DNA of 9,030 nucleotides, taken from NCBI GenBank assembly GCA_035528375.1, contig DATKYS010000006.1, forward strand, positions 1 to 9,030, read 5' to 3'. The notes below the pieces were generated by a model. That model had not been told where the DNA came from. It worked only from the letters and a program-made list of their open reading frames with translations, and searched no databases. The translations under genes and the position numbers were made by a program. Below are positions 4,049 through 8,120 of this stretch, one piece after another (position 1 is the stretch's first letter; every line of letters begins with the position of its first letter). The stretch comes from a bacterium (lineage in GTDB: Bacteria; RBG-13-66-14).

Positions 4049-4067
4049 CAGTGTAGGAGGTGGAGTG

Positions 4068-5921
4068 ATGAATAAAATCCTGGTCATTCTCGCCGCCCTC
4101 GCCCTGACGGCCCCCCTGGCCGCCGAGGAGTGGCACAAAGAGGCCCTCGACACTCTGGACACCAGCAACGACACCTGCCTCGTCCTGGACGGGCTCGGAC
4201 ATCCGCGAATCGTCTACATCGCCTCCAGCGACCTCAAGTACGCCTGCTGGGACGGGGCCGACTGGTCCTACGTAACGATATACCATTCCAGTAGCTTGAC
4301 CGGGCTGCTCGACCTGGTACTGGACGACGACGAATACCCCCATATCGCGTATTGTACGTTCCGTGTAGCGGACAGTCTGACGTCGTATTATTACACGTAT
4401 TTCGATGAGAACGGCCAACATTTTTGTCCAATATTCGAGACGAGTTTCGCCGCCCAGTACATATCCCTCGACCTGGCCGCGGACCGAACCCCCCACGTAT
4501 CCCTGGGGTACATGCCTTATTGTTACGCGTACTGGGACGGCGAATTATGGTACCTCGAAAGGGCGCCGGGATTCGGGGACATCGCTTTCGACGGGGCCGG
4601 CCGGCCCACGGTCGCGACCTGCTGGACGAACGACGAGCTCACGCTCGCCGTCCGGGAAAGCGGCGGGTGGACCGAGGAGACGGTGGACGCGGATGTGTCG
4701 TCGAAAATGGCATCGCTGGCCTACGACTCCCTGAACCACCCCCATATCTCCTACTACGACTCCGACGCCGACGACCTCCGCTACGCCTATCACGACGGTT
4801 CCGCCTGGCACGTCGAAATCCTGGACACGGAGGGCGACGTCGGGAATTACAACTCACTTGCACTCGATTCGGACGACCTGCCGCACATCGCCTACTACGA
4901 CGCCACCGAAGACGACCTAGTCTACACGTACTACGCCGGGGGAGAGTGGCACCGCGAGGTGGTGGATTCGGTGGGCGGCGTGAAACTTTACGCTTCGCTG
5001 ACGCTGGACTCCTACGACAGGCCGCACATCTCGTACAACAACGACACCCTCGGCGCCGTCATGTACGCCAGGCCGGTCAACGAATTCTTCCACCTGGTAT
5101 GGCCCGAGAGGGACGAGTTGGTGGAAGGCCCTTCCCTGACGCTGAACTGGCAGGACCATGAGATTCCCGACCTGGACAGCTACACGCTCCTGTGGGCGCG
5201 GAACCCGGATTTCAACGATTACGAGGAGATCACCGGGATTGAGGAATCGGAGTATCTGCTGGAGGGCCTGGAGGACGGCGACCGCATCTGGTGGCGGGTG
5301 AAATCGGTGGACGAGTCGGAGGACGAGCAATGGGCCGAGGAGATGGATTGGTTCTTCGACGTGGAGCTGGGCGGCGGGGTGGATATCGTTGACATGGGCG
5401 CGAAGCCGACCGACGCGGGCGTGTTAGTCAACTGGCGCTTCGAGGGGGGCGAGCCCGTCGGGATGGAAATATGGCGGAGCGATGACGGTGGTGAACCGGT
5501 CGCGCTTCCCGGCGGACCGCTGCCCGGTTCCGCCTCCCGCTACCTGGATCGGAAGGTTACACCGGGCGTCGAGTATATTTACCGGCTGGAGGTCACGGAG
5601 GCCGACGGGACGGTGACGCGGTTCGGACCGACGGAGGCGGTGAAGATTTCCCTACCGGACATCGAGCTGACGCTTGCCGCCTTCCCCAATCCTGCGACTG
5701 ATACCGTCACGATTCGCTGCGACCTGCCCGAAGACGGCCGGGTGGAGCTGGCGGTCTTCGATCTCGCCGGTCGGCGCGTGGCGACGCTGGTGGAGGGGGA
5801 GGTCGCCGCCGGCAGGCACGAGGCGGTCTGGGATTGCGCCGACGTGAAACCTGGCGTATACCTCTGCCGGCTGGAGACGACGGGGGGTAACTCGACCGAA
5901 CGCCTGGTCGTCACTCGATAG
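4068..5921 (+). CDS. Exported seven-bladed propeller protein with FN3-like and C-terminal sorting domains
   Basis: A 617-residue exported protein. Residues 1-19 are a signal peptide (cleavage near LAA|E). Residues 21-337 contain seven copies of a 38-51-residue unit centred on a PHIxY-like motif (prolines at 46, 91, 142, 180, 225, 272, 319), usually followed by a Tyr-rich strand and a GxxWHxExxD strand. This is the pattern of a beta-propeller. The N-terminal EEWHKEALDT supplies the last strand that blade seven lacks. Residues about 341-431 and 436-528 are fibronectin-III-like (the second with IWRSDDGG and YLDRKVTPGVEYIYRLE). Residues 536-617 are a type IX secretion/FlgD-like C-terminal domain (AFPNPATD, FDLAGRRVATL, WDCADVKPGVYLCRLET). 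It is probably secreted or surface-anchored and binding; no catalytic motif is recognised. ATG 4068 is preferred over GTG 4065 because AGGAGG (4055-4060) is 7 nt away. Confidence 0.9.
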   Translation: MNKILVILAALALTAPLAAEEWHKEALDTLDTSNDTCLVLDGLGHPRIVYIASSDLKYACWDGADWSYVTIYHSSSLTGLLDLVLDDDEYPHIAYCTFRVADSLTSYYYTYFDENGQHFCPIFETSFAAQYISLDLAADRTPHVSLGYMPYCYAYWDGELWYLERAPGFGDIAFDGAGRPTVATCWTNDELTLAVRESGGWTEETVDADVSSKMASLAYDSLNHPHISYYDSDADDLRYAYHDGSAWHVEILDTEGDVGNYNSLALDSDDLPHIAYYDATEDDLVYTYYAGGEWHREVVDSVGGVKLYASLTLDSYDRPHISYNNDTLGAVMYARPVNEFFHLVWPERDELVEGPSLTLNWQDHEIPDLDSYTLLWARNPDFNDYEEITGIEESEYLLEGLEDGDRIWWRVKSVDESEDEQWAEEMDWFFDVELGGGVDIVDMGAKPTDAGVLVNWRFEGGEPVGMEIWRSDDGGEPVALPGGPLPGSASRYLDRKVTPGVEYIYRLEVTEADGTVTRFGPTEAVKISLPDIELTLAAFPNPATDTVTIRCDLPEDGRVELAVFDLAGRRVATLVEGEVAAGRHEAVWDCADVKPGVYLCRLETTGGNSTERLVVTR

Positions 5922-5953: not shown

Positions 5954-5979
5954 GGGGGATGACTTTCCGGTCATCCCCC
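5954..5979. terminator. Hairpin after the propeller gene
   Basis: A perfect 10-bp stem, GGGGGATGAC (5954-5963) with GTCATCCCCC (5970-5979), has a 6-nt loop. No T-run follows on the plus strand. On the minus strand it is followed by ATTTTAATAT, so it may terminate transcripts coming from the right. A weaker version in the second duplicate lies at about 6121-6147. Confidence 0.55.
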
Positions 5980-5998
5980 CGTCCGCCCTCCGGTTTAA

Positions 5999-6047
5999 AA
6001 AGACCGGCGCCGGGTCTTCGGTTTCCCGGTCGGCGGCTCTTTTTTTC
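5999..6047 (+). terminator. Intrinsic terminator of the propeller gene
   Basis: An imperfect GC-rich stem (from AAGACCGGCGCCGGG, about 6000-6014, to CCCGGTCGGCGG, 6025-6036) is followed by CTC and a run of seven T (6040-6046). It lies about 80 bp after the stop at 5921, in copy 1 of the tandem duplication. Confidence 0.7.
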
Positions 6048-6166
6048 TAACCGGGCAACGCCCGTCTCACCGGTCGGCGTGATTCGGAATCAGTCGGGTA
6101 TAGGTCGGAATAATTGAACAGGGGATGACCTTTACGATCCTCCCCCGTTTGCACTCTAGTTCTCAG

Positions 6167-6207
6167 AGACCGGCGTTAAGCCTTCGGCTTCTTTGTGGTC
6201 TTTTTCT
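6167..6207 (+). terminator. Second terminator-like hairpin, in copy 2 of the duplication
   Basis: The outer stem AGACC (6167-6171) pairs with GGTCT (6197-6201). The inner stem AAGCC (6178-6182) pairs with GGCTT (6186-6190) around TTC. A T-rich run, TCTTTTTCTT, follows. It is the duplicate of the 5999-6047 terminator and would be a backup. The same bases on the opposite strand encode the lysine codons of the mini-ORF at 6176-6217, so the two interpretations compete or coexist. Confidence 0.5.
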
Positions 6208-6217
6208 TGCCGGGCAT
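6176..6217 (-). CDS. Candidate 13-residue lysine-rich mini-protein
   Basis: On the minus strand, ATG at 6217 opens a 13-codon frame, MPGKKKTTKKPKA, ending in TAA at 6176-6178. GGGAGG (6224-6229) lies 6 nt before the ATG, ideal spacing, and a promoter with -35, -10 and an AT-rich upstream tract lies at 6272-6299. Seven of 13 residues are Gly-free basic or proline positions (6 Lys, 2 Pro), giving a strongly cationic peptide. Similar tiny Lys/Pro-rich ORFs are rarely annotated, and I know of no function. In the duplicate at about 6010-6053 the equivalent frame is broken: reading from a TTG in place of ATG it stops at the fourth codon, and one base must be removed to restore a basic frame. Alternatives are a non-coding RNA from the same promoter, or simply the complement of a plus-strand terminator. 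Confidence 0.4.
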   Translation of the reverse strand: MPGKKKTTKKPKA

Positions 6218-6256
6218 CAAGCACCTCCCTTCGATTGTGGGTGGTGATGGGAACGA

Positions 6257-6299
6257 ATACTTTATGGCTAAAGTATAGACGGTTTCGCAAAAAATTCAA
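6257..6299 (-). promoter_or_regulatory. Promoter with overlapping operator-like palindrome (minus strand)
   Basis: On the minus strand TTGAAT (6294-6299) is followed by a 16-bp spacer and TATACT (6272-6277). Directly upstream, 6300-6335 is very AT-rich, like an UP element. An inverted repeat, ATACTTT (6257-6263) and AAAGTAT (6270-6276) with a 6-bp centre, overlaps the -10 and the predicted start point at about 6265, the usual place for a repressor site. It is the most complete promoter in the window, and it points at the mini-ORF. Confidence 0.55.
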
Positions 6300-6617
6300 G
6301 AAAAAAATTATTCAACCAAGATTATATATTTCAACTAGTTACATAGATTTACCCTTCAACGTTCCGATTTTTTTCGAGACCGCGGAAGACCTCCAGCCGG
6401 GGGGTATAGGCGTAAAACAAGGGTATACCTTTCACAAGCCGAATGGCCCCCCGCCGACCGCCCGCGCGACCGAGGAATTTTTTTCCGCCGCTCGGGAAAC
6501 ATCGGATCGCGTGACCCGATTTACTTAAAAAAACCCCGCGAGCGGCGCCCGGTGGTCGGCCCCGCCGCCCCGACGGCCGAGGCACTCCACGAACGCAAAA
6601 GCGGGTGAGGCCCAATC
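6300..6617. other. AT-rich island and non-coding stretch
   Basis: Positions 6285-6370 are strikingly AT-rich, with long A and T runs, in a GC-rich genome. TTCAA recurs at 6295, 6311, 6330 and 6355. From 6371 to 6617 the base composition returns to GC-rich with no supported gene. A mismatched stem at 6501-6520 (ATCGG...CCGAT) has no T-run. Open frames on both strands here lack convincing protein features. Confidence 0.45.
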
Positions 6618-6656: not shown

Positions 6657-7670
6657 GTGACCTATCCCGAAAAACCTTTGGCGCTGGACCCGGGAAATCT
6701 CAGCCGCTTCATCGCACGCGTGAAGGACCCGGACACGCATTTCGCCGTTTCGCTGGGATCGGGGGCGACGCTGGCGCTGGCCTCCAGCCTCTCGATTCTG
6801 CAGACGCTGGACGACCTGGGCCTGCGGGGTCACGTGGACGAGGTGTGGGGAGCCTCCTCGGGGGCGCTCGCCGCGGGGCTCTGGTGCTCGGGGACGCCCG
6901 TGGCGGAGGTGATGGCGCTCCTGCGGCGGTTGCGACGCCGCGACCTGGTGGACGTGGCCTGGGGGCACATCCTCAAGGGGCTCTTCACCCGGAGGTGGGA
7001 CCTGGACCTGGCCGACGGTCTCGTGAACGGCCGGGCGCTCATCGGCCGGGTGAGGGGTCTCCTGCGCGTCGAGCTGGTGGAGGACTGCCCGGTCCGCTTG
7101 AGGATACTCCTGGCCCACGACGACGGCTCGGCGCGGATAAAGGTGGTCAAGCGGGGGTCCCTCCTCGACGCGATTCGAAGCTCCATCGCCATGCAGGGGG
7201 TGATGCGGCCCGGGTGGTTCGAGGGGGAGAGGTTCGTGGACCCGACACTTCTGGAAAAAACGCCGCTCCCCAGCGTCACCGCCGACTTCCGCGCCTCGGG
7301 GAGCACTAAAAAAAAGCTCCTCATCCTGGCCGCCTTCTTCGGCTACCACGGGCAGACCCGACCCATCCGCGGGCTGATGAGCCGCATCTTCTTTTTCAAG
7401 GAGGTGTTGCAGTACCAGGTGTTCCTGGCCCACCTGACCGCGGTGCGCCACCAACCCGGCACCGACGTCATCGTTTACTCACCGTGCATCCACGATGTGG
7501 ACACCCTGGCCGTGGAGCAGGCGGACGAGATTTTCTCCGAGGTCCGGCGGCAGATGGCGGTCCGACTTTCCGACGAGTGCCTGGACGCCGACATCCACAA
7601 GGCGGACCCCGACGTCTGGGTCCCGCGCTGGTGCCCGTCCACGCTCTTCGAGAGGGACGAGGGCGAGTGA
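6657..7670 (+). CDS. Patatin-like phospholipase
   Basis: A 337-residue predicted serine lipid acyl hydrolase of the patatin family. Gly34-Ser-Gly36 (SLGSGATLALA) matches the glycine-rich oxyanion loop. GASSG at 65-69 is the GxSxG nucleophile elbow with Ser67. AIRSSIAMQGVMRP (172-185) matches the conserved segment before the catalytic Asp, and FVDPTLLEKTPL gives Asp195. In most patatins this is Asp-Gly-Gly/Ala; here it is Asp-Pro-Thr, so activity is plausible but not certain. There is no signal peptide or clear membrane segment, so it is probably cytoplasmic, acting on phospholipid or acyl ester substrates. The start is GTG 6657, placed by the promoter and frame limits; no good Shine-Dalgarno precedes it, unlike its neighbours. 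The C-terminal ~110 residues match no domain I recognise. No clear terminator follows; a repeat array begins about 60 bp downstream. Confidence 0.85.
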   Translation: MTYPEKPLALDPGNLSRFIARVKDPDTHFAVSLGSGATLALASSLSILQTLDDLGLRGHVDEVWGASSGALAAGLWCSGTPVAEVMALLRRLRRRDLVDVAWGHILKGLFTRRWDLDLADGLVNGRALIGRVRGLLRVELVEDCPVRLRILLAHDDGSARIKVVKRGSLLDAIRSSIAMQGVMRPGWFEGERFVDPTLLEKTPLPSVTADFRASGSTKKKLLILAAFFGYHGQTRPIRGLMSRIFFFKEVLQYQVFLAHLTAVRHQPGTDVIVYSPCIHDVDTLAVEQADEIFSEVRRQMAVRLSDECLDADIHKADPDVWVPRWCPSTLFERDEGE

Positions 7671-7731
7671 TACCCCTTCCCTCGGGGAGACCTGCGGGTC
7701 GGGATTAGGGTCGTGGTATGGAATGTGAATG

Positions 7732-8120
7732 CGGCGGGGACTAAAATCCCCGCCCTACGTCATCGCAACCGGGGTGAAGGTTGCGATGGTCCCCTCTCCC
7801 TTCCAGGGAGAGGCTCGCCTACGGGTTAGGGTGAGGGTCGGGACCGGGAACGTCGAAAACACGGCGGCCCGCGGCCTCCCTCTCCCCGTGGGAGAGGGAA
7901 TGAGGGTGAGGGCTGCCTTAGAATAAAAACGGGCCGACCTGAAGGTCGGCCCCTACGTCATCGCAATTCGCGGCGGCCCGCGGAGGGGCCGCCCTACGTC
8001 ATCGCAGCCGGGGTGAGGGTTGCATAAAACGGCGGGGATTAAAATCTCCACCCTACATTTCCCCCTCCCCCCTCTGGGGGGAGGGTTGGGGTGAGGGGCA
8101 GGCGGGTTAGGAGACCCGCC
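7732..8120 (+). repeat. Array of eight or more hairpin repeat modules
   Basis: Modules in order, arms given: 7733-7740/7747-7754 (GGCGGGGA) with tag CTACGTCATCGCA; 7761-7770/7779-7788 (CATCGCAACC); 7793-7801/7805-7813 (CCTCTCCCT); 7878-7886/7890-7898 (CCCTCTCCC); 7931-7940/7943-7952 (GGGCCGACCT) with tag; 7972-7979/7986-7993 (GGCGGCCC) with tag; 8031-8039/8044-8052 (GGCGGGGAT, two mismatches) followed by CTACATTT; 8063-8072/8076-8085 (CCCTCCCCCC) followed by TTGGGGTGAGGGG; 8101-8107/8114-8120 (GGCGGGT). The same modules appear at 1-254 and 1957-2071. No coding region is supported here. Confidence 0.85.

Follow-up and report, generated by a model that had tools for sequence, protein, structure and literature searches.

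Type I toxin-antitoxin systems pair a small hydrophobic toxin peptide with an antisense antitoxin RNA. Amino-acid leader-peptide attenuators have a short open reading frame (ORF) that is rich in one amino acid and is followed by hairpins. AapA3 of Helicobacter pylori is a type I toxin mRNA with a 5'-3' long-distance interaction (PMC6733600). Spot 42 RNA of E. coli encodes a 15-amino-acid protein, SpfP, and both the RNA and the protein were tested by experiment (cited in PMC11955535). Here we describe a unit from the phylum Coatesbacteria that belongs to a known kind, the short mRNAs and dual-function small RNAs.

Like Spot 42/SpfP (PMC11955535), the unit combines a predicted short transcript, its own promoter and terminator, and an ORF of about equal, tiny size. 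Unlike Spot 42, it is known from sequence alone, Hfq is undetected in its phylum, and the two have no sequence relation. Like AapA3, it would be a short structured mRNA, with the 5' end predicted to pair with the 3' part and the Shine-Dalgarno (SD) sequence predicted to be paired (PMC6733600). But the pairing predicted for the SD does not exceed that of shuffled leaders, and the peptide, MPGKKKTTKKPKA, is lysine-rich, has no hydrophobic stretch, and does not resemble a type I toxin in this respect.

The stretch of DNA that we analyzed (the window) is a complete contig of 9,030 bases from a 2.6-Mb genome; we know of no cultured member of the Coatesbacteria. The unit sits between a propeller gene and a patatin-like gene, on the opposite strand. 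The features are:

4065-5921, plus strand: propeller gene with a Por secretion tail (stop at 5921)
5954-6057, both strands: diverged tandem copy of 6121-6216, with two hairpins, terminator-like both ways
6119-6149, minus strand: imperfect terminator-like hairpin
6151-6164, minus strand: predicted 3' arm of a closing stem, after the stop codon
6176-6217, minus strand: 13-codon ORF encoding MPGKKKTTKKPKA, plus TAA (ATG at 6217-6215; TAA ends at 6176)
6224-6229, minus strand: SD GGGAGG, 6 nt before the ATG
6249-6260, minus strand: predicted 5' arm of the closing stem
6257-6276, no strand: perfect palindrome ATACTTTAgccaTAAAGTAT over the -10, operator-like
6272-6277, minus strand: -10 hexamer TATACT, with a spacer of 16 bp; start point expected near 6265
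6294-6299, minus strand: -35 hexamer TTGAAT, identical in 3 of 3 genomes
6307-6334, minus strand: second, tandem promoter-like site TTGAAA-16-AATAAT, with similar sites in both relatives
6657-7670, plus strand: patatin-like gene

The promoter scan of the window listed no plus-strand promoter-like site near the ORF. Short repeats, of the types GGGCCGACCT...GGTCGGCCC and CCTCTCCCT...GGGAGAGG, are interspersed at 1-260, 1950-2060, and 7680-8110 of the window; by blastn, these repeats are also on the contigs of relatives.

The gene order bears on whether the ORF is a leader peptide whose lysine codons attenuate a downstream operon. The six lysine codons, with hairpins and a terminator after them, do fit an attenuator. 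But in all three genomes with the locus, the minus strand has no gene downstream of the ORF for the unit to control, and the next gene is convergent. This gene order nearly refutes attenuation, which we consider very improbable.

The initial annotation listed TTGAAT-16-TATACT on the minus strand with a palindrome over the -10, GGGAGG at ideal spacing, ATG, MPGKKKTTKKPKA, and TAA, and all of these parts are present where it placed them. The peptide is very basic, with 6 lysines among its 13 residues. Promoter, SD, start, and stop lie within one unit, which gives the locus the sequence features of a micro-protein mRNA. When the intergenic region was shuffled, 42 of 1,000 sequences (about 4%) had a strong SD followed by an ORF of 9 codons or more, so statistics from this single sequence are only suggestive, and conservation carries the case.

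TTGAAT-16-TATACT was also recovered by the promoter scan in both relatives. Its description as the best-formed promoter in the window was not exact: it scores 9/12, versus 10/12 for the tandem site, which lies 35 bp upstream. The window has 5 promoter-like sites, as compared to 1.4 ± 1.2 in shuffles. The palindrome (6276-6257) reads ATACTTTA-GCCA-TAAAGTAT, with no mismatches, and is identical in the three genomes; a palindrome with at most 2 mismatches is expected just 0.05 times in the window. We also considered that the palindrome might mark a member of a regulon, and rejected this, as there are no other exact sites in 14 genomes of the phylum.

For a neutral expectation, we turned to the two flanking genes and their 4-fold degenerate sites, of which 66 of 247 (27%) are variable across the three genomes. 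Across the ORF and its stop codon, just 1 of 42 columns is variable (P = 3.5e-5, which assumes independent sites and one neutral rate, for blocks that were picked from the finding's own anatomy). The sole change, from ACA to ACC, is synonymous. A random single change in the ORF would be synonymous with a probability of 0.21, so this change alone is weak support for selection on codons. The SD stretch (6222-6232) has no variable columns out of 11, and the promoter palindrome region has 1 of 25. The leader between the palindrome and the SD, in contrast, has 8 variable columns out of 22 as well as indels, and the AT-rich tract has 35 of 92. The constraint is modular, with the promoter and operator, then a free leader, and then the SD and ORF, and this contrast between frozen and freely varying parts fits a selected minus-strand unit. 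Further downstream, 4 of 28 columns vary in the region after the stop codon, 5 of 29 in the hairpin, and 54 of 194 in the downstream intergenic region. The ORF is the most constrained 42 bases: within the aligned region and outside of protein-coding genes, the only 42-base segments with at most one change are the ORF and its one-base shift.

In both relatives with the locus, the promoter, the SD, and the frame are all conserved (the initial annotation had said beforehand that a lack of such conservation in close relatives would refute the unit). This conservation supports the proposal of a minus-strand unit, whether it acts as a peptide or as an RNA. A unit of about 150 nt, with promoter, operator, SD, 13 codons, and hairpin terminator, appears to be under selection.

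Separately, there is a second conserved non-coding block at 6395-6443, with 4 of 49 columns variable (P = 0.0012, under the same assumptions). It carries GGTATAGG and GGTATACC half sites, and its synteny is limited to the same three genomes. It may serve the patatin gene as an operator or as a promoter element.

Our best explanation, to which we give about even chances, is that the locus encodes a self-contained, repressible, short minus-strand mRNA that is translated into a 13-residue basic peptide. We infer that transcription begins near 6265 from TTGAAT-16-TATACT and that the palindrome over the -10 is probably the binding site of a repressor. The strong SD on the RNA of about 150 nt would drive translation into MPGKKKTTKKPKA. 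The transcript would end at the hairpin at 6149-6119, which had been placed at about 6121-6147 and was found; the proposed length of 140 nt was slightly short. In both relatives, this hairpin is followed by the T-run TGTTTTTT. In this genome, the T-run is broken at 6108-6119 (TGTTCAATTATT), so the transcript may continue to the terminators at 6045-5954. The initial annotation also raised the possibility that the RNA is antisense to the 3' region of the propeller gene. This is unsupported, as the transcript should end about 190 bp before that gene's stop codon. As for the peptide, being basic and without a hydrophobic stretch, it would most likely bind RNA, DNA, or another acidic partner.

A translated mRNA would fit the near-absence of change in the ORF, with its one synonymous substitution, when 27% of 4-fold sites vary. 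It would also fit the frozen SD and palindrome on either side of a leader with substitutions and indels, as for a promoter and an mRNA. The synteny in two other genomes, the promoter rescanned in both relatives, and the end of the constraint at a neighboring copy (29 of 104 columns variable) also argue for it. On the other side, there are three genomes with one informative codon change, and pattern searches for the peptide elsewhere, which covered the 14-genome set for the phylum, viral contigs, and 84,980 genomes, found no relatives except in RBG_13_66_14. Also, the predicted folds leave the SD base-paired in each of the three genomes, and the region after the stop codon is itself fairly conserved and is predicted to pair with the 5' end, which is more like an RNA.

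Indeed, the predicted fold is alike in all three genomes. 6260-6249 pairs with 6164-6151 (12 pairs in the relatives), and in each genome, about 98% of shuffles give a poorer duplex than this closing stem. Within the stem there is a compensatory C-G to U-A change and a C-G to U-G change, and the 149-nt fold of the window sequence has z = -3.3. So we also considered that the unit might be a structured small regulatory RNA, with its 5' end paired after the ORF, inner hairpins, and a closing terminator. The SD and the ORF would be incidental, and the conserved bases would act by pairing with targets or by binding a protein. However, once the terminator is left out, the fold surpasses shuffles by only a modest margin (z of -1.4 to -2.8). 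The compensatory pair is one among 49, and the covariation, from three sequences only, is within shuffled controls. The 5' arm overlaps the palindrome, whose conservation could be at the DNA level. Furthermore, it would be a coincidence that an SD is conserved at ideal spacing and that the constraint lies exactly over the ORF. The RNA matches no known family (there is no Rfam match at the gathering threshold, and allowing E up to 5 gives only a chance match to P15). Nor does it seem to be a CsrA sponge or an Hfq-dependent RNA, as neither protein was detected in any of 14 Coatesbacteria genomes (G000-G013). Overall, a structured RNA with an incidental ORF seems unlikely, but it is the main competitor of the peptide.

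Both aspects might matter in the same transcript, with a peptide and base pairing, by analogy to Spot 42/SpfP. Such a dual-function RNA would account for the ORF-like constraint as well as the shared fold. But it requires both functions, and we view it as improbable. We also rejected the idea that occlusion of the SD acts as a switch: shuffled leaders pair with the SD equally well, so we do not count the pairing of the leader over the SD as evidence.

The initial annotation offered an alternative for the lysine codons, which is that they are merely the complement of the T-run that follows the hairpin of a plus-strand terminator, or of a terminator relic. The segment 6121-6216 does have a tandem counterpart at a distance of 166 bp, and that counterpart is a bidirectional terminator: the segment aligns end to end with 5954-6057 with a score of 42, versus a maximum of 27 in 2,000 pairs of shuffles, so the two units share an origin. 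There is also a stem with TTTTTC on the plus strand. But as a present function, a plus-strand terminator is quite improbable. On the plus strand, the fold of the ORF segment is no better than shuffled sequence (z = -0.6), while the sister copy forms strong folds whichever strand is read (z = -4.6 on the plus strand and -4.0 on the minus strand). The sister copy has no SD, no ORF, and no conserved start codon, and it drifts at the neutral rate, as compared to 1 of 42 columns for the ORF. A terminator would also leave the conserved SD, promoter, and palindrome unexplained.

As an account of origin, the alternative may hold: the lysine codons may first have appeared opposite the T-run of a terminator. 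Such an origin does not account for the present freeze of the ORF. We can imagine, as a speculative scenario that we consider doubtful, that a peptide gene was born antisense to a bidirectional terminator that had been duplicated in tandem. In one copy, the A-tract would have become the lysine run, the segment would have gained a promoter, an operator, and an SD, and selection would have fixed it in one lineage of Coatesbacteria, while the sister stayed a plain terminator. The copies in these three genomes are compatible with either order, terminator first or gene first.

The locus is found in 2 of the 3 other genomes of the genus, in synteny and at 89–91% identity. Searches by DNA, by pattern, and by covariance model gave no further copies in the 14 Coatesbacteria genomes. 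In those genomes, the covariance model recovered the three loci; its other hits were terminator hairpins and a single alignment in G005, which overlaps the end of a gene and its terminator. We rejected a wider family. A different gene occupies the position upstream of the patatin gene in G003 (from the same genus) and in G004 and G006 (from the same family), and we also rejected an orthologous locus there. An exact-pattern search of 84,980 genomes, which would miss divergent copies, matched only one relative, Candidatus Coatesbacteria bacterium RBG_13_66_14. Viral contigs and phage records gave no matches, and we rejected a phage origin. The unit is rare and restricted to part of one genus of Coatesbacteria, and it is either young or often lost.

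Annotation misses genes that are this short, and conservation is needed to reveal them. If the ORF of this unit is translated, few bacterial protein genes that carry a promoter, an operator, and a terminator of their own would be shorter. And with a non-coding sister copy adjacent to it, the locus could give a traceable origin of a micro-gene from a terminator.
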